Source: a virus. Taken from it: 35,854 bases of DNA. Where the stretch lies: positions 1 through 35,854 of IMG/VR virus record IMGVR_UViG_3300013306_000035; one strand, written 5' to 3'. Made by a program: the position numbers and the translations under genes. Below the pieces are notes generated by a model, which searched no databases, had not been told where the DNA came from, and saw nothing but the letters and a program-made list of their open reading frames with translations. Every line of letters starts with the position of its first letter. Within the stretch, counting starts at the first letter, position 1. Positions 2,854-12,197 of this stretch are shown in pieces.

Positions 2854-5800
2854 ATGGCGGTCCGCATCCCCGTCTATGAACGGCACGTCCAGCTAGACTC
2901 TGGCGCCCAGACGATTCCGCGCTTCTCCGCATCGACCGAGCTTGGCAAGGCGGTGAAGGAAGCGGGCGGCGCCATGATCAGCGTCGCCGCGCACTGGCGG
3001 GCGAAGCAGGACTCCTTCGACAAGATGCAGATGGCCGCCAACGTCGGCACCTATCACGCGGAAATTCAGCAGATCATCGCCGAGGAGACTGCCAAGTTTA
3101 ATCCGGCAGTCGACCGTCCCGGGGTGCTGCACGACCGCATCATGGAGCGCGTCGCCGTTGCCAACCAGAAATTTCAGTCGACGGCGCCGCCAAGTCTTGC
3201 CAGCGAGTACAAGATCAAGGGCGACGCTTCACAATCACAGACTTCGTACACATCCGCCGGTCACGAGAGCACCATCCGCAACAGTTACGGCAGGTCTTTC
3301 CTTGACAAGCAGGTGGCCGACATTGCCGCGTCGGTGGTGAAGAATCCGGACGCGCATCCCACCGCCATCGCGCAGGTCAAGCAGGCGATCAAGGATGCGG
3401 CGCCAGCCAGCGGTCTTTCTCCGTCGCAACAGCGGGCGCTTGAGGACACCTATCTCGACACCGTCGGCAAGAATGTCATCAAGGGCTACATGGCGACGGG
3501 CCGCGCCGACGATGCGGCGAAGTTCAGGGAGCAATTTGTCAAAGATCGCGAGGCGGAATCGCCCGTGCAGTTTCAGGCGCCGACGGTGGTCAAGCCGCAG
3601 ACGCAATTGCCCGGCGGCGCGACGGGGCCGGTCGAGGGCAAGCTCAACGAGAAGCGCATCGCCGAGATCGACAAGAACCCGACAGTCAAGGCGGCCATTG
3701 AGAAGGCGGCGGCGGAGAACGGTCTCGATCCGCAGGCGCTCAAGGTCTTTGCCTCCATCGAGTCGAGCGGCAATCCGAAGGACGTCACCGGCAGCCACCA
3801 CGGTCTTTTCAACCTGACCAAGGCTGAGTTCGGCATGAACGGCGGCGGCAACATCTATGACGCTGCCGACAATGCCAACGCCGCAGCCAAGGTGCTGGCG
3901 CAGAAGAAAGACCAGTTGACCCAGCAGCTTGGGCGGGAGCCGACATCGGCAGAACTTTACGGTTCGCACAATCAGGGCATGGGCGGCGTGATGGCCCATA
4001 TCCAGAACCCGGACCAGCCCGCGTGGAAGACCATGCTTGCCACCAAGGAAGGGCAGGATCGGATCGAGAGCGACGGGCAGGCAGGCGCCGAGAAATGGGC
4101 GAAGAGCACCGTCAACGCCAACGTACCCAGCGACGTGACCAAGCGGCTATACAACGGCGACGCCAGCCAGATCACCTCGCGCGACTTCATGGCGATCAAT
4201 GCCACGAAGGTGCAGGGCGGCAACATCGACGAGGCAATCACCAACGCGCGCATGGAGCCGAAGCCGGAAGCGCCGCGCACGGTGGTGGCCTCGGCGGACG
4301 GTACTGTTCAGTCTGACACGCGGCCCCCGGCTTATGTCGGCGCCGTCAATGTCGGCGGGGCGCAGCCCGCGCGGACGCTGGCTGGTTACCAGCAGCAGGC
4401 CTCCATCCCGCTCGATGAGGCGGGCGCGCACGGTTACGAGCGCGGCGGCGTGAAGACCGCACCGTGGCTGGTCGACACCGTGCGCAACGCCTCGAAGGTT
4501 TTGCCCGAGGGCTACACGGCAAAGATCATCTCGACCGTCGATCCGCGCTCGACCGGCACCCCGTGGCATCCGTCAGGCCGCGCCATCGACATCCAGATTT
4601 ATGACGACAAGGGCAACAAGGTGCCCAACGTCGGGCCGCCCAGCGTCCCCGGCTGGGACGTCTACGAGAAGATGGGCGCGGCGGCGCGGGCCTATCAGCA
4701 GGAAAAGTATCCTGACCAGCACCTGACATGGGGCGGCCACTTCAACACCGGGACGCCGTACGACCGCATGCACTTTCAGGTCGGCGGCGATCATGCGCGC
4801 GACTTCACGCCGCAGCAGGTCACGCAGGCCGGGGAGGCGCTCAAGGCGTCGCCGATCCAGATCGCGCAGGCCGATGACGGCAGCGGCAGGCCCACGGTCC
4901 CCTCCGGTCTTTCGCGCTGGCAGCAGTGGAACCAGACGCAGACCAACGTGATCAACGGTGGCACCATGAAGGCGGCGGCGATCAATGCGGCGATGAAGGC
5001 GTCACTGGTCCGCACCATCAACAGCGATCTCAATGCCACCAAGGTCAACGGCGATGGCATCAAGCTCACGCCTGACTTGCAGAAATACTACGGCACCGAC
5101 AGCCTGTCCTTCGACTTCATCTCGAACAAGATCGGCACCGGGGCGGCGATCAAGTGGCAGCAGGACAAGGACTTCAACCAGAAGGTCTTTAACGGCGGCG
5201 CGCACATGGAAGAGATGCCACGCGACGTCATGATCGAGCGGCTACAGGCGCTCCAGCCCGATCCCAACTCCCCGGTCTATGATGATCAGGTCAAGGTTTA
5301 CAGCGAGGTGCTCAAGAAGGCGCAAGGCATCGACAAGCTGCGCAATTCCGACCCGGCGGCAGCAGCCGATAAGGACCCGGTGGTGGCGGAAGCGAGGAAG
5401 GCAGCGTACGCCGACCGCGGCAATCAGGAGAAGATGGACAAGCTGATCACTGCGCGCATGAACGCGCAGGAACATCTGGGGATTGCCGACCCGCTGCGGA
5501 CACCACTTACCAACGACGAGGCCAAGGAACTGGCGGCGCCGCTGCTCAACCGGGCGCGGCCCGATCCGGCCAACGCGGCGCAGGAAGTGGCCGTCGAGGT
5601 CATGAAGCGCGTCGGTAGCGCGACCGCCAACGGCGTCCCCGACTTGCAGCAGCGGGCCTTGCAGACGGTGCTCAAGACCCAGCACATCACCCAGCAGCAG
5701 GCGGCGGACACGGCAGCCGCGCTGGCCACGGCGCAGCATCCGACCCCGGCGCCACTGATCGCCAAGGACCGGCAGCCGCCGATCATCTACGACGAGTTCG

Positions 5801-6213
5801 GTGTGGCCGGATACCGGTCAAAGGACGGCTACTTCATGGTGGGGAAACCGGACGGGACGTCGAGCGGCCCGTCGGACGACTACGCCGATCCGCCATCCTT
5901 CGGCTTTGCACCGGGGACGCGGTTCATTCCGGGGCAGCACATCAACGAGCTTCTCAACCACAAGGGCAAGGAGACCGAGCAGGAAGCGTCCGACCTGTTC
6001 GACAGCCACTACGACGCCGGCGCGGCCAAGTATTTCCTCAGTGGCGGCACCAACGCTCCGCCCACACCGCTGCCGCCGGGCAAAGACGTCCTCAACAGCG
6101 AGGCGGAGCAGACACTACCGCCCGCGGCGCTGCCGCAAGAGCAGCTTCCGGGAGTACAGGAAGACCCCTACAAGACCAGCCCGGATGACGACGAATCCAG
6201 CGGAGCGCTGTGA
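2854..6213 (+). CDS. Large ejection protein with lytic transglycosylase and M15 peptidase domains
   Basis: A 1119-residue internal virion protein that carries two predicted peptidoglycan-degrading domains. The first, about residues 280-390, is a soluble lytic transglycosylase (SLT)-like domain: E303 in FASIESSG is the likely catalytic acid, followed by HGLFNLT and, near residue 370, YGSHNQGMGG. The second, about 540-645, is an M15/VanY-type zinc peptidase: H572-x6-D579 in WHPSGRAID, then WGGHF (626-630) and DRMHFQV with H640 as third ligand. The rest is Ala/Gln-rich and probably helical. It starts 1 base after the previous stop, and its stop overlaps the next start by 4 bases. Known relatives (T7 gp15/gp16 type) are ejected into the periplasm to open the cell wall. 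Carrying both a glycan-strand and a peptide-crosslink activity in one ejection protein is notable. Domain calls are confident; cleavage specificity is not known. Confidence 0.85.
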   Translation: MAVRIPVYERHVQLDSGAQTIPRFSASTELGKAVKEAGGAMISVAAHWRAKQDSFDKMQMAANVGTYHAEIQQIIAEETAKFNPAVDRPGVLHDRIMERVAVANQKFQSTAPPSLASEYKIKGDASQSQTSYTSAGHESTIRNSYGRSFLDKQVADIAASVVKNPDAHPTAIAQVKQAIKDAAPASGLSPSQQRALEDTYLDTVGKNVIKGYMATGRADDAAKFREQFVKDREAESPVQFQAPTVVKPQTQLPGGATGPVEGKLNEKRIAEIDKNPTVKAAIEKAAAENGLDPQALKVFASIESSGNPKDVTGSHHGLFNLTKAEFGMNGGGNIYDAADNANAAAKVLAQKKDQLTQQLGREPTSAELYGSHNQGMGGVMAHIQNPDQPAWKTMLATKEGQDRIESDGQAGAEKWAKSTVNANVPSDVTKRLYNGDASQITSRDFMAINATKVQGGNIDEAITNARMEPKPEAPRTVVASADGTVQSDTRPPAYVGAVNVGGAQPARTLAGYQQQASIPLDEAGAHGYERGGVKTAPWLVDTVRNASKVLPEGYTAKIISTVDPRSTGTPWHPSGRAIDIQIYDDKGNKVPNVGPPSVPGWDVYEKMGAAARAYQQEKYPDQHLTWGGHFNTGTPYDRMHFQVGGDHARDFTPQQVTQAGEALKASPIQIAQADDGSGRPTVPSGLSRWQQWNQTQTNVINGGTMKAAAINAAMKASLVRTINSDLNATKVNGDGIKLTPDLQKYYGTDSLSFDFISNKIGTGAAIKWQQDKDFNQKVFNGGAHMEEMPRDVMIERLQALQPDPNSPVYDDQVKVYSEVLKKAQGIDKLRNSDPAAAADKDPVVAEARKAAYADRGNQEKMDKLITARMNAQEHLGIADPLRTPLTNDEAKELAAPLLNRARPDPANAAQEVAVEVMKRVGSATANGVPDLQQRALQTVLKTQHITQQQAADTAAALATAQHPTPAPLIAKDRQPPIIYDEFGVAGYRSKDGYFMVGKPDGTSSGPSDDYADPPSFGFAPGTRFIPGQHINELLNHKGKETEQEASDLFDSHYDAGAAKYFLSGGTNAPPTPLPPGKDVLNSEAEQTLPPAALPQEQLPGVQEDPYKTSPDDDESSGAL

Positions 6214-9200
6214 TGGCGGACGACGAGGTCCCGACCGAGACCCCGGCTGGCGGCACCGGTTTTCAGTTGCCGGACGCGCCCGGCGACTTCAGCGAGACCG
6301 TCCCCAACAAGGCCACGGCGAAGCCGGGAAAAATGGCCGACCCGTTCACGCCGCTCACCCCGGAGCAAGAGCGCACCGAGCGGGCGCGGCTGAATTTTCA
6401 GCAGGGCTTCCGCGGCACACTGGCAGGCTCCGCGCTGGCTGCCGACGCCGCGCGGGGTGCCGAGGGCTTTACCCCCGAAGAGCAGGCCAAGATGCCGGGG
6501 GAGATTGCGGGGGCGCAGGCCGCCATCGGTGCCGAGCTTCCGGCGATTGACAGCGGCGGGATCAACTTCGACGCCGCGCAAGAGACCGCAAAAGACGAGT
6601 TGCAGAAGATTCAGGCCGACCAGATGGCCTACAAGAACATGCCCGCTTACCACGGCGTGGTGGAGGGCGCGTTCTCGCTGGCCGGTCAACTCGGCGGCAT
6701 GTCGCTGTCGCCGGAGAACCTCGTCTTTCCGCAGGCGCGGATCGGCTCGACCGCGTGGCGCGTGGCGCACCCGCTGATCTCCGACATGATCGGCTACGGC
6801 GTGGCGCAGGGCGCCATCCAAGGCGTCGCCAATCCCATCGTGCAGACCAACGAAATACGCGCGGCGCTGCGCAAGGAATTTGATCCGGTCGAGGCATCGC
6901 TGGCGTTCCCCGTCGGGTTTGCCTTCGGCGGCGGGCTGGCGGCGATCACGCACGGCGCCGCCGGGCTGTACCGCTACAGCCGGGACGCGCTGGAAGACTA
7001 CATGATCAAGGGGTTGCGCGGCCCGCAACTCACCCCGGAGGTCAAGCCGTACGTCGCGCCGGAGCCGCCGCGGGCGCCCGCCGACACCTTCGAGCACGGG
7101 ACGCAGTTTGTCCCCGCTGCCCCGCACGAGCCGCTGGCGGTCGGTGTGACGCCGGAAGCCCCCACCGGCAGCGTCCGTCTTTATCGCGCCGAGGGACCGG
7201 GCGACGATCAGGCAAAACACGTCCTGTTCTCGACGACGCAGTTTCCCGGCGCCAACCAGTTCATTGATCTCCCGGCGGAGACCGCGGGCCTGCTGACGCG
7301 GGAGGGCGAGAGCCTTGCCGTGCCGCAAGCCATTGCTGCGATGCGGGAGAAAATGCCCGTGACGCCCGCTGCCCCGGCCCGGGCGCCGGAAGGCCCCAGC
7401 GTCTTCGAGAACCTGACCGACTACGACAAGGCGGTGCGGGTCAAAAAAGGCGAGGAGCCGCAGACCTTTACTGAGTGGGTCCGGTCACAGGGCGGTCTCA
7501 AGTCAGACCCGGAACTGAAGGCGCTCTACGGTCGCACCAAGAGCGACCTCGTGCGCAAGACCGGCAAGTCGCTGGACGAGATTCGCGAAGCCGCGGTGCA
7601 GCAGGGGCGGCTCGACAAGGATGCCGGGATCGACGACGTGCTCCGCCTGCTCAAGGACGAAGACAGCGGCGTCAAGCACTACCATCCGCTGGAGACGGCG
7701 AAGGCGCAGGAGATCGCGGCCAAGCGCGATCCCGAACTGCGCCGCGTCATGGATGAGGTCGACGTCTCGCTGCGCGAGATCGGCGAGCATCCGTCACAGA
7801 TCGGCAACAAGGCCAAGAAGGCCGAGGCCAAGGACATCCGCAACCGGGCCATCGAGATCGCCCACACCGAGGATGTTCATCCCGAGACGGCCATCGAGCG
7901 GGCGATGCAGGAGTATGGCGAACATGAAGCAGGCGCAGCAGGGAAAGCAGGGCGGCTCGTCGAAGAGCACCCCGACATTCCGTTTGACACCGAAGCAACA
8001 CCTAGAGCGGGCGGACGTGCTGGAGAAGCTGAACCCGGAGTCGCACCTGCCGCAAATGCACCGGTCGATGGCGGCGCACATGCTGCGGCGGTCGCGGAAG
8101 GACGCATCGCCAAGCGAGTAAAGGGCATGGCCGGGCAGGGCATTGCTGCCCCGCCCGGGGGAACGCGGCTGGGTGCCGACGTGGCATCCGCCCACTTCAT
8201 CGGCCCGCTGCGCCCGGTCGAGAACCTTCAGGACATGATGCGGCGGGTCTCCAAGGATCTGGAGTTGACCGTCCGCAAGGGCGTCACCGAGAAGGGCGCG
8301 CTGGGTCAGTACGACTTCGAAACGCACATCGCGCGGCTCAATGAGATGGGCCCGGACGGCGTGGTGACGTGGGCGCACGAGGTTGGCCACGACATCGAGA
8401 ACCGCATGGGCAAGCCGGTGGTCGGCCTGATTGCCGCCAACGAGCAGAGCATGCGCGCCTTCGCCGGAGTCATGGGCCGCGGGCTGGAGGGGCGCGAGCT
8501 TCTGTCGGAGGGCTTCGGCGAGTTCATGGCGGCCTACATCACCAACCGCCCGCGCCTCGAACTGATCGACCCGACCTTCACCAAGGCCTTCCGCGAAATG
8601 ATGGCGAAGGAAAACCCGGCGTTGCTCAAGACGCTGGACGACGCCCATTCGTCATACCTGAACTATCAGAACAGCCCGTCCGACAAGGCGGTCGCCTCGA
8701 TGATTGTCACGCACGGCGAGGTGCCTAAGGCCGACCCGAACGACCCGCTGCAACGCGGGGCAACAGGCCGCTGGCTGTCCAATTTCTACTGGAACTACGT
8801 CAACCGCCAGCACCCAATGACCATCGCCTTCCGCTATCTGGCGGAGCAGTACGAGAAAAAGAACGGCAAGCTCCTCGATTTGCGCCCGGATCAGGACCCG
8901 CGGCTGCTGGCGCAGGTGCTCAGTGATTCAGGTTTCCAGAAGACCGTGATGGACCTGACCTACGGCATCCAGAACATGCGCGATCTCACCCCGGAGGGCG
9001 CGTCCTACTTCTCGATCATGCGCCGCGTCACTGCCGACCCCTTGACCGGGACGGAGGTGAAGTCCGAAGCGGAGTTTCTCGAACGGCGCAAGGCCTTCGA
9101 CGCCTATTTGACGTCGCGCTGGCACCTCGAACTGCGCAGGCAAATGTCCAACGGCGAGATCGACCTCACCCGCATGCCGACCGGCATGACCGATGGCGAT

Positions 9201-12197
9201 GCGATGAAGACCGTTGCGAACATGGAGCAACTGCACCCCGAGTGGCAGGGGCTGGCGCAGGAGCTTTACGGCGTCAACAAGCTGATCGGCAAGCTGGAGA
9301 TGGAGAACGGCCTGATCAGCGCCGAGATGTACGCGGAGCGGATGCACCCGCGCAACGAGCGCTACGTTCCGCTTTACCGCGACATGCGCGGCATTTCCGA
9401 GCAGCTTGGTGTCGGCGGCGAGTTTCGCGGTGACAAGAATCTCGAAAACCTTGGTCTTTACAAACGGCAGGGCAGCGGTCGCAACATCCTCTCGCCGACC
9501 GAGACGATCATGACGCGGCTGGCGAGCATCAACGACGCCGCCAATCAGAACATGATCACGCGGGCACTGCGCGATCTTGTGCAGCTTGTCGGCGGCAAGG
9601 AAGGCGCGCTGATCGCCGAGATGATCCCCAACGCGCAACTGCGGGCGCTTGACGTCAACGTCAACGACGCGGTCTACAAGGCGGCGATTGCGCAGGGCTG
9701 GATGCCGGACGATGCCAAGTCTCTGGTGCAGGGCCTCCAGCATGAGCTTGGTCCCGACATCCGCACCAAGCTCTACCGGCAGGAATCCATCAAGGCGGGT
9801 GGCCGACCGATCATCTTCGGCTGGGACAACGGCGAGCGCTTCGCCATGCGGCTGCCGGACGGCGAGTTCGGCAGGCAGCTTGTCGAGGTGATGGACTCGC
9901 TGGGGCCGAAGGGGATGCAGGCGTGGGCACAGGCGGGCGGTCTCGTGGTGGACGCGCTGACGTTCTCGTCCTCGACGCTGCGCGCGGGCGCCACCGGCAC
10001 CCCCACCTTCATGGCGAAGAACCTGCTGCGCGACGCCTTCATGCAGTTCCTTACGGTGCCGGAGGCGGGCGTCGACACGCTGGCAATGGCCAATGCCATC
10101 CGCGGCGGGCGCTCGTACCTGATGGGCGACGAGTTCTACCGCATGTACCTGTCGACCGGCGGCATCCGCGGCGGCGTCGGCGCCGCCGGTCTTTCCCGGT
10201 CTTCGCAGCAGGTGGAGTTCGAGAAAGAAGTCAGGCGCTTCGCCGATGCGGGCATGGACATCTCCAAGAGCAAGTTCAGCCCGAAGGCGTTGCAGAACGC
10301 GCGCGCCGAGATGGCCGACGCGCTGGGCAAGGAAGGCGTCCCCGCGCACCAGCAAATCTGGTTCGGCGACATCAAGGACCTGATGCAGAGGCTGGAGATT
10401 TCCGAGAGTGCTGGTCGCGTCGGTCTTTTCCGCACGGTGTACGACGCCAACCTCGCGATGGGGCGGGACAAGCGCTACGCCATGTACGACGCGGCGGCGA
10501 AGGCGCGCGACTTCATCGACTACGGGCGCATGGGATCGCGCATGGAGATGTGGTCGCGCATGGTGCCGTTCCTCAATGCGAACGTGCAGGGCATCGACAA
10601 GTTCATGCGGACCTATGTCGGTTCGCCGTCGTCGCCCGGCATGTTCTTCAAGCCGTTCACCCAGCAGCAGGCCGACTACCAGAAGGCGCTGCGCACGACG
10701 CTGATGCCACGGGTGGCGGCGCTGGCGGCGATCAGCGCCGGGATCACCTACGCATGGGAAGATGACCCTGTGTACCAGCGGCTGTCGGTGCAACAGCGCT
10801 CGCAAAACTGGATTTTCCGGGTGCCGTGGTTGGCGTCCGGGTCCTACGACATGCTGGGCGGCGGCAACGTCGAATTGCCGGAGGGCATGCAGGGCGCATG
10901 GGTCTTTATTCCCAAGCCGTGGGAGCCGGGGACGCTCTTCAACTTCGCGGAAAAGGCGGTCGAATTTCTCGGGTCGGGCGGTGACACCAGCCATCTCACC
11001 AAGGCGCTGTCCTCGATGCGCTACACCTTCAGCGTTCCTAACCCACTGGAGCTTCCGCTGGTCCGCACGTCGGCGGGGCTGGCCTCGAACTACGACGACT
11101 TCTTCCAGCGCCCGATCATCTCCTCTAGTTTGCAGGGGCTGGCACCGCATCTTCAGGCCAACGAGTACACCAACAAGTTCTACGTCGCGCTGGCGCAGAG
11201 TCTCAACATGGTCTGGAACAGTGAGGACGCGCACACGTGGTTTCGCAAGAACATCCCGGTCGTCGGCTCGATGCTGGCGGCGCCGTGGTCTCCAATGGAG
11301 GCGCAGTACCTGATGCAGGGCGCGTTCGGCGATTGGCCGCGCGAGCTTGGCGGCATCGGCGGCATTGGCCGCTCGCTGCTCAACGGCGAGATGCCCAACG
11401 CGCAGGACATTCCCGCGCTGCGCGCCTTCGTAAAGACCAAGATGGCGATGGGCGAGCCGATGAACGAGCTTTACAACCAGATCGGCCAGAACGGCGGGCG
11501 GCTGACGGTGGCCAACAAGACCTTCAGCCAGCTTGTCAAAAACGGCGATCAGCCCGCGGCGCAGCAATACCTCAATTCGCTCGATGAGACCCAGCGCGAC
11601 TACGTCTACATGCACCAAGTGCAGGCGGGGCCGCTGGCCAACGTGCTGCATCCGCTCGACCGCTCGTCGGCGCTGGCGTCAGTGACGCGCGTCCTGAAAA
11701 ATGGTCTTTTGACCGAGGGCGGGCTGGCGACACTGCGTGATCCCAATGTTCGCATCAAGCTGGAGAACGGCAAGCGCGACGCCATCATCCAAGCGGTCAA
11801 CGAGTACACTGCGACCGAGGCGCGCAACGGGCTGATCGTGCAAGGTGCCGACGGTTTCAAGAACCTGCCGGTCAAGGACACCAAGCCGTATCTCGACATC
11901 ATCAACGCGATCTCGCCGGAGGTGGGAAAAGACCTGAGCGCCCGTCTCGCACAGTCGAAGGTGATGCCGATAGAGACCATCCAGCGCTTCTGGCCCGATG
12001 CGCAGCGCGCGCTTCGTGTAGGATCGTCCGCAGACCCGACTCAGTTGTCCCGCCAGATCAAGGCGATCAGCGAGCGGGCCGCCATCTCGGGCTACGAAGG
12101 GGGTGGTAGAAGGAGCGGACGCGGCGCAGTCGATGTGAGCGGCCAGCAGGTCAAACGCGGCAAGGCGGCACCGGTCGCGCTGCCTGCCGTCCCATAA
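6210..12197 (+). CDS. Giant internal virion protein with HEVGH metallopeptidase motif and LPD38-like region
   Basis: At 1995 residues this is the largest gene, a T7 gp16-like or 'large polyvalent protein' of the virion core. Visible parts are: residues about 320-360, a stretch (RLYRAEG at R326, then LFSTTQF) vaguely like an ADP-ribosyltransferase core, which I treat as weak; residues 570-640, a low-complexity Ala/Gly linker; residues 715-780, a zinc metallopeptidase-like segment with HEVGH at 723-727 and a downstream SEGFGEF (E767/E771) that could give the third ligand; and from about 1440, PFLNANVQGIDKF and what follows, resembling LPD38, with a hydrophobic stretch near 1498-1515. It starts in an ATGA overlap with the previous gene and ends 11 bases before the tail fibre. 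Size and position point to an ejected protein. The peptidase activity is a prediction from motif only. A second frame (7924-8121) is nested in the linker. Confidence 0.8.
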   Translation: MMADDEVPTETPAGGTGFQLPDAPGDFSETVPNKATAKPGKMADPFTPLTPEQERTERARLNFQQGFRGTLAGSALAADAARGAEGFTPEEQAKMPGEIAGAQAAIGAELPAIDSGGINFDAAQETAKDELQKIQADQMAYKNMPAYHGVVEGAFSLAGQLGGMSLSPENLVFPQARIGSTAWRVAHPLISDMIGYGVAQGAIQGVANPIVQTNEIRAALRKEFDPVEASLAFPVGFAFGGGLAAITHGAAGLYRYSRDALEDYMIKGLRGPQLTPEVKPYVAPEPPRAPADTFEHGTQFVPAAPHEPLAVGVTPEAPTGSVRLYRAEGPGDDQAKHVLFSTTQFPGANQFIDLPAETAGLLTREGESLAVPQAIAAMREKMPVTPAAPARAPEGPSVFENLTDYDKAVRVKKGEEPQTFTEWVRSQGGLKSDPELKALYGRTKSDLVRKTGKSLDEIREAAVQQGRLDKDAGIDDVLRLLKDEDSGVKHYHPLETAKAQEIAAKRDPELRRVMDEVDVSLREIGEHPSQIGNKAKKAEAKDIRNRAIEIAHTEDVHPETAIERAMQEYGEHEAGAAGKAGRLVEEHPDIPFDTEATPRAGGRAGEAEPGVAPAANAPVDGGAHAAAVAEGRIAKRVKGMAGQGIAAPPGGTRLGADVASAHFIGPLRPVENLQDMMRRVSKDLELTVRKGVTEKGALGQYDFETHIARLNEMGPDGVVTWAHEVGHDIENRMGKPVVGLIAANEQSMRAFAGVMGRGLEGRELLSEGFGEFMAAYITNRPRLELIDPTFTKAFREMMAKENPALLKTLDDAHSSYLNYQNSPSDKAVASMIVTHGEVPKADPNDPLQRGATGRWLSNFYWNYVNRQHPMTIAFRYLAEQYEKKNGKLLDLRPDQDPRLLAQVLSDSGFQKTVMDLTYGIQNMRDLTPEGASYFSIMRRVTADPLTGTEVKSEAEFLERRKAFDAYLTSRWHLELRRQMSNGEIDLTRMPTGMTDGDAMKTVANMEQLHPEWQGLAQELYGVNKLIGKLEMENGLISAEMYAERMHPRNERYVPLYRDMRGISEQLGVGGEFRGDKNLENLGLYKRQGSGRNILSPTETIMTRLASINDAANQNMITRALRDLVQLVGGKEGALIAEMIPNAQLRALDVNVNDAVYKAAIAQGWMPDDAKSLVQGLQHELGPDIRTKLYRQESIKAGGRPIIFGWDNGERFAMRLPDGEFGRQLVEVMDSLGPKGMQAWAQAGGLVVDALTFSSSTLRAGATGTPTFMAKNLLRDAFMQFLTVPEAGVDTLAMANAIRGGRSYLMGDEFYRMYLSTGGIRGGVGAAGLSRSSQQVEFEKEVRRFADAGMDISKSKFSPKALQNARAEMADALGKEGVPAHQQIWFGDIKDLMQRLEISESAGRVGLFRTVYDANLAMGRDKRYAMYDAAAKARDFIDYGRMGSRMEMWSRMVPFLNANVQGIDKFMRTYVGSPSSPGMFFKPFTQQQADYQKALRTTLMPRVAALAAISAGITYAWEDDPVYQRLSVQQRSQNWIFRVPWLASGSYDMLGGGNVELPEGMQGAWVFIPKPWEPGTLFNFAEKAVEFLGSGGDTSHLTKALSSMRYTFSVPNPLELPLVRTSAGLASNYDDFFQRPIISSSLQGLAPHLQANEYTNKFYVALAQSLNMVWNSEDAHTWFRKNIPVVGSMLAAPWSPMEAQYLMQGAFGDWPRELGGIGGIGRSLLNGEMPNAQDIPALRAFVKTKMAMGEPMNELYNQIGQNGGRLTVANKTFSQLVKNGDQPAAQQYLNSLDETQRDYVYMHQVQAGPLANVLHPLDRSSALASVTRVLKNGLLTEGGLATLRDPNVRIKLENGKRDAIIQAVNEYTATEARNGLIVQGADGFKNLPVKDTKPYLDIINAISPEVGKDLSARLAQSKVMPIETIQRFWPDAQRALRVGSSADPTQLSRQIKAISERAAISGYEGGGRRSGRGAVDVSGQQVKRGKAAPVALPAVP
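7924..8121 (+). CDS. Candidate nested gene in an alternative frame of the giant virion gene
   Basis: A 65-residue frame lies wholly inside the 1995-residue gene, shifted by one base. It begins MKQAQQGKQGG and continues with a charged helical body (RLTPKQHLERADVLEKLN, then an HRSMAAHMLRRSRK segment). Over these codons 56 of 65 third positions are G or C (86%), the normal pattern of this genome. The host frame has only 30 of 66 (45%) and reads as an Ala/Gly/Glu linker. The G+C-third signature moves back to the host frame on both sides of this interval. CAGGAG at 7908-7913 lies 10 bases before the ATG. I do not recognise the product. It could be an overprinted small virion or regulatory protein, or the remnant of a separate gene once present between two genes now fused through the linker. 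Expression is unproven. Confidence 0.55.
   Translation: MKQAQQGKQGGSSKSTPTFRLTPKQHLERADVLEKLNPESHLPQMHRSMAAHMLRRSRKDASPSE

Follow-up and report, generated by a model that had tools for sequence, protein, structure and literature searches.

A probable overprinted gene in the linker of a giant polyvalent-type phage gene, and unrelated +1 nested frames in other giants

The question raised by this locus is whether a short +1 reading frame inside the largest gene of a phage is a second, selected gene. The window, that is, the whole stretch of 35,854 nucleotides analysed, derives from a viral record in which this giant gene occupies 1995 codons. The original prediction was that positions 7924–8121 form an overprinted gene, recognizable by G/C-rich third positions, a charged helical translation and an AGGAG ribosome site, and that the giant may have arisen by fusion of two genes across it. 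The coordinates, frame, ATG and stop proved right on re-checking, the translation of the nested ORF being MKQAQQGKQGGSSKSTPTFRLTPKQHLERADVLEKLNPESHLPQMHRSMAAHMLRRSRKDASPSE. The features are as follows:

6210..12197, + strand: host giant gene, 1995 codons, polyvalent type (zincin + LPD38), between an SLT/peptidase gene and a tail-fibre gene
7909..7913, + strand: AGGAG resembling a Shine-Dalgarno sequence, 10 nt ahead of the nested start codon (ATG, 7924), where a ribosome site had been claimed
7924..8121, + strand: probable nested +1-frame gene, 65 codons + TAA; product P0001, a small helical protein without family match
7990..8100, + strand: conserved core of the nested protein (helix 23–36, five-residue turn, helix 42–59), from prediction and alignment
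8376..8390, + strand: HEVGH zincin motif of the giant, approximately 85 codons 3′ of the nested gene end
10764..11414, + strand: LPD38 domain of the giant (PF18857), profile match

The giant is preceded by a phrog_376 tail-protein gene and the SLT/peptidase gene, and followed by the tail-fibre gene. Since it possesses the HEVGH motif, an instance of the HExxH motif common to the giant and its relatives, and an LPD38 domain scoring 67.4 and 72.1 bits, above the curated cut-off of 27, it is classed as a polyvalent-type protein. Polyvalent phage proteins with zincin and LPD domains were described by Iyer et al. 2017 (PMC5512222). The window giant resembles them in being a giant multidomain protein with these two domains, and is kin to giants of isolated podophages; the nested gene would be an added layer, and the word "overlapping" was not found in the text of that paper. 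From its family and gene neighbourhood we infer that the giant is packaged in the virion and injected as an ejection-type protein.

Composition and conservation of the nested frame

The alternative frame is open and is provided with a start and a ribosome site, as is expected of an overprinted gene. Computed GC3 amounts to 0.86 for the nested frame and 0.46 for the main one, in agreement with the hand counts in the original prediction; GC3 of the whole giant gene is 0.85. As a coding signature, the fall in the main frame is informative and the high nested value is not diagnostic: synonymous redraws of the main protein give a nested GC3 of 0.871 ± 0.009, because nested position 3 is main position 1, the composition of which forces a high value. 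Likewise, the lack of nested stops is weak evidence, since a stop arises in only 13% of the redraws. Both properties are explained by the main protein and were discarded as evidence. The actual anomaly is the depressed GC at the main-frame third position (nested position 2), and no other +1 segment of the giant gene scores as high as 7924–8121 in an amino-acid-controlled codon scan (z 9.1, with an open frame and positive log-odds). That main-frame composition largely accounts for nested GC3 and the lack of stops is compatible with there being no nested protein at all, the constraint stemming from the main frame or an RNA element and the +1 ORF being a by-product of a Gly/Ala/Pro/Glu-rich linker in a GC-rich gene.

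Against such a by-product stands the comparison of relatives. The nested family of the window comprises three distinct lineages, namely the window itself (with the nearly identical L002), L003 with L004 (one difference, counted as one lineage), and L005; genome-contig scans found no close relatives. Homologous nested ORFs occur in the same frame and place in L003 (74 aa) and L005 (72 aa), with cores LSPEQHLARAAQLEKWDPEGNAPLARLHRRAAEGSLRRQRK and LSPEQHLARASQLEQWDPENAPLARAHRRAAEAQLRRQRK, respectively, and alignment of the three lineages reveals 22 identical columns in the core. Nested-frame stops were seen in the nested ORF of none of the clade relatives, and relatives yielded no free-standing copy of this protein elsewhere. 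The nested ATG overlaps a conserved main-frame His codon in all lineages, and the codon equivalent to AGGAG carries a purine-rich motif, AGGGAG in L003 and CGGGAA in L005, the nested start of the latter having only a weak Shine-Dalgarno sequence.

Comparison of the two frames in these relatives finds the nested protein conserved beyond two nulls. For the three pairs, nested similarity exceeded independent synonymous redraws with z values of 4.6, 3.8 and 7.3, and redraws matched to the observed codon divergence with z values of 9.2, 13.2 and 7.3, with 0/2000 reaching the observed value in each pair. This is purifying selection on the nested protein beyond main-frame constraint. Conversely, similarity in the main frame lies above what the nested frame alone predicts (z 5.4, 2.4 and 5.6, to which shared ancestry contributes), so that both frames carry constraint. 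Main amino-acid identity in the region is 0.43, 0.39 and 0.58, down from 0.65–0.69, in keeping with the earlier description of a linker, here a poorly conserved one rich in Gly, Ala, Pro and Glu. Codon identity at conserved residues rises in the same region; between the window and L003, it is 0.66 vs 0.51, where main identity is 0.43 vs 0.65 elsewhere.

In the L003–L005 core, identity at main third positions is 0.80 vs 0.55 in the flanks (p = 0.002) and at main first positions, which are the nested third, 0.71; the position pattern is inverted and nested third positions are the most variable. Conserved main residues with free third positions would have spoken for the main frame, and the opposite is seen in this pair. 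In the nested-frame alignment of the same core, changes silent in main and altering nested number 6/39, and the reverse 15/34. The window–L003 and window–L005 pairs have higher third-position identity too, without significance, and in these two pairs neither the SN vs NS site-class counts nor the position tests are decisive.

The predicted product and the joined giant

AlphaFold2 modeling from a four-row alignment yields a helical hairpin (helices 23–36 and 42–59) following a disordered N-terminus, with pLDDT values of 93–94 for residues 21–50 and 81 for residues 51–60. The protein, of approximately 7.4 kDa, is basic, predicted to be soluble, S/T/P/Q-rich at its N-terminus and charged throughout (GRAVY −1.23), which fits the charged helical sequence originally described; it lacks the lipoprotein signal or hydrophobic segment of an Rz1-type spanin. 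The profile search that had been suggested was run and gave no Pfam or PHROG match; sequence, profile and fold searches found no relatives in Pfam, PHROG, PDB or BFVD, the fold searches returning weak generic hairpins only. The confident hairpin, the amino-acid conservation above both nulls and the variability of nested third positions leave little probability that the nested frame yields no protein. The overprinted-gene reading is thus borne out by conservation beyond two nulls, a kept start position and a predicted fold, nothing that the original prediction named as counter-evidence turned up, and on these sequence comparisons 7924–8121 is very probably a selected, protein-coding nested gene.

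The second part of the original prediction, that the giant was joined from two genes over a small third one with its frame kept, is not supported. A search with the LPD38 region yielded 33 loci, distant relatives included. In the scanned relatives the giant is one long ORF, with HExxH in nearly all, and in L017, L025, L028, L040 and L041 the N-terminal region, zincin and LPD38 reside in one polypeptide. The nested family of the window is absent from all five, the L028 linker having an unrelated nested ORF instead. Relatives without the ORF thus already carry the joined protein, and the nested gene accordingly sits in the linker of an already fused giant. Two observations do recall a fusion: the main frame after the nested stop reads AAGGG(C/G)ATGGC in all lineages, resembling an old start, and the middle module (residues 395–572) is limited to the window clade apart from a weak match in L029. 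A split arrangement was, however, not found for the window clade, and given the joined relatives a fusion relic is most improbable.

Directly 3′ of the nested stop, a main-frame ATG (8127–8129, within AAGGGCATGGC) is kept in 3/3 lineages, and might allow the zincin portion to be initiated internally in frame.

Nested frames in other giants

With amino acids held fixed, a scan of 30 giants for open +1 windows with z ≥ 7 and positive log-odds found these only in the window, L005, L025 and L028, in each case in a linker 130–190 codons before HExxH. The L028 nested protein (58 aa) is a confident hairpin, with pLDDT 97–98 from the single sequence; detectable sequence similarity to that of the window was not found. 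A 65-aa candidate in L035/L039 was rejected, the main frame being, by eye, better conserved there. The background scan of non-giant ORFs was contaminated with spurious antisense ORFs.

Phage isolates also possess such frames, at the following loci:

VvAW1/LASTA family: L071, 3001–3321; L072, L073, L075, L076, L077, L078 and L079, approximately 3001; L069, 658–984
BA3/FGH 63-aa nested protein: L062, 3199–3390; L068, 3295–3486
Bocovirus-like site: L058, 1811–1957; L065, L066 and L067, 3283–3429

One family of approximately 105 aa (MNLNNWVSQARxHWKEH...) was matched in the giants of Vibrio phage VvAW1, Klebsiella phages LASTA and SopranoGao, Erwinia phages Pavtok, PEp14 and Stean, Agrobacterium phage Atu_ph08, Pseudomonas phage Itty13, Ochrobactrum phage POI1126 and Microcystis phage Mwe-JY07, and is missing from the annotations of at least nine phages. 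Inspection at the sequence level covered nine, all but Stean; in 9/9 the nested ORF is shifted by +1 relative to a long open frame, and neither frame has a stop. Median identity is 0.43 in the nested frame vs 0.34 in the main frame, with z values against the null of 6.8–19.9 in the pairs tested, and the segment is the top +1 window of the codon scan in LASTA and Atu_ph08. No profile match to this family was found in the window (hhalign probability 0.1), and none to the LASTA family in plasmids.

In Sinorhizobium phage PBC5 (L074, 2733–3306) two ORFs make up a split giant, and the upstream one continues in frame into a VvAW1-type nested protein (orf33, from which phrog_938 seems to derive); the split may reflect a frameshift or local mutation, or a sequencing error. 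The long frame of the Itty13 giant (L075, record 4012–10323) is unannotated and three antisense ORFs are annotated across it, which looks like wrong-strand annotation. At codon ~3897 of the Atu_ph08 giant (L081), a second +1 nested segment is possible (z 4.8, log-odds 12, open).

A nested protein of 63 aa recurs in Thalassomonas phage BA3 and Vibrio phage FGH, at 71% identity and z 10.6. The annotated BA3_0004 overlaps it and starts (3058) 5′ of the conserved stretch. Like the window gene, BA3_0004 occupies the linker of a giant in the +1 frame, and it is annotated there as a nested CDS; its C-terminal 63 aa are those conserved in FGH, and its sequence is unrelated to the window nested protein. 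BA3_0003, annotated just before the BA3 zincin with a TTG start, is without codon support and probably spurious. In four Bocovirus-like phages, a +1 ORF of approximately 48 codons with an open frame lies at giant codon ~600; synonymous differences are 0–1 per 49–50 codons vs 12–20 per 52–57 just downstream, and the main-frame sequence is well conserved; the site would be a nested gene or an RNA element. Achromobacter phage CF418P1 has a 68-aa nested candidate (z 8.5).

Profile comparison, where tested, found no homology among the different nested families. On the sequences compared, +1 nested ORFs unrelated to that of the window are found repeatedly in further DarB-like and polyvalent giants. 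The VvAW1/LASTA family, the BA3/FGH protein and the Bocovirus site count as independent replicates in favour of the window gene. We lean, by a small measure, toward the broader view that the ejection giants of podophages are a recurrent home of overprinted +1 genes, with at least five unrelated families, mostly in interdomain linkers and nearly all unannotated, that would supply dedicated accessory proteins.

Expression, role and known systems

In the mechanism proposed, ribosomes would start internally at ATG 7924 on the mRNA of the giant, guided by AGGAG, and produce a protein with a flexible S/T/P/Q-rich N-terminus followed by an α-helical hairpin. The same DNA would serve the giant as a low-constraint Gly/Ala/Pro/Glu linker just before the zincin domain, and the overlap would be tolerated because so little is demanded of that linker. 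Of ten nested ATGs that are roughly independent of one another, nine are preceded by a Shine-Dalgarno-like motif, as against 14% of the remaining +1 ATGs, an optimistic statistic in that some starts in other phages were picked among nearby ATGs. Programmed +1 frameshifting near 7924 would instead generate an N-terminal fragment of the giant with a helical tail and no separate protein; the nested frame is indeed open well upstream in the window and L005, and in PBC5 the VvAW1-type protein forms the in-frame tail of the upstream half-giant. The PBC5 split may, however, be artefactual or local, as mentioned above, the ATG and Shine-Dalgarno-like motif are conserved, and the ATG has a nested-frame stop 15 nt ahead of it in L003, and directly ahead of it in LASTA, Pavtok and PEp14. 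Frameshifting is therefore improbable, and separate initiation is favoured by the Shine-Dalgarno-like motifs and the in-frame stops just upstream of the ATG; we infer both translation and separate initiation of the nested gene from these sequence features.

That unrelated nested ORFs recur in DarB-like and polyvalent giants suggests that nested protein and giant are functionally linked. Small helper proteins are a component of the phage P1 Dar system, in which an accessory protein is defined by its requirement for loading of the giant into the capsid. By analogy, the foremost candidate role of the nested protein is that of an accessory or packaging cofactor, which would be produced at a constant ratio to the giant; we offer this assignment tentatively.

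Embedded Rz/Rz1 spanin genes and the overlapping genes of phiX174 are known examples of a small phage gene wholly within another in a different frame, as in the present case. Unlike Rz/Rz1, the window nested protein is hydrophilic, without a hydrophobic segment, and is encoded in the linker of a giant late protein rather than in a lysis gene. PMC9144972 and PMC6630229 describe DarB-like giants of PBC5/Bcep22-like podophages, in JC1 as part of the virion protein set, and their passages on DarB make no mention of nested genes. These giants are virion-associated, as the window giant is presumed to be, and several were seen here to carry a +1 nested ORF, but their nested family differs from that of the window, whose giant gave no methylase or helicase match. 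A prior report of nested genes in DarB-like or polyvalent giants was not found in the literature searched, coverage of which was partial.

Viral overlapping genes are best known from small genomes. The present findings would mean that the giants of tailed phages, some of more than 4,000 codons, repeatedly hold hidden selected genes, which annotation pipelines merge into the big ORF. One nested family is conserved in phages whose hosts belong to at least seven genera, and is open to testing in cultured phages. Such genes would supply parts so far lacking from the DarB/polyvalent injection systems, and would mark the linkers of giants as favourable sites for overprinting.
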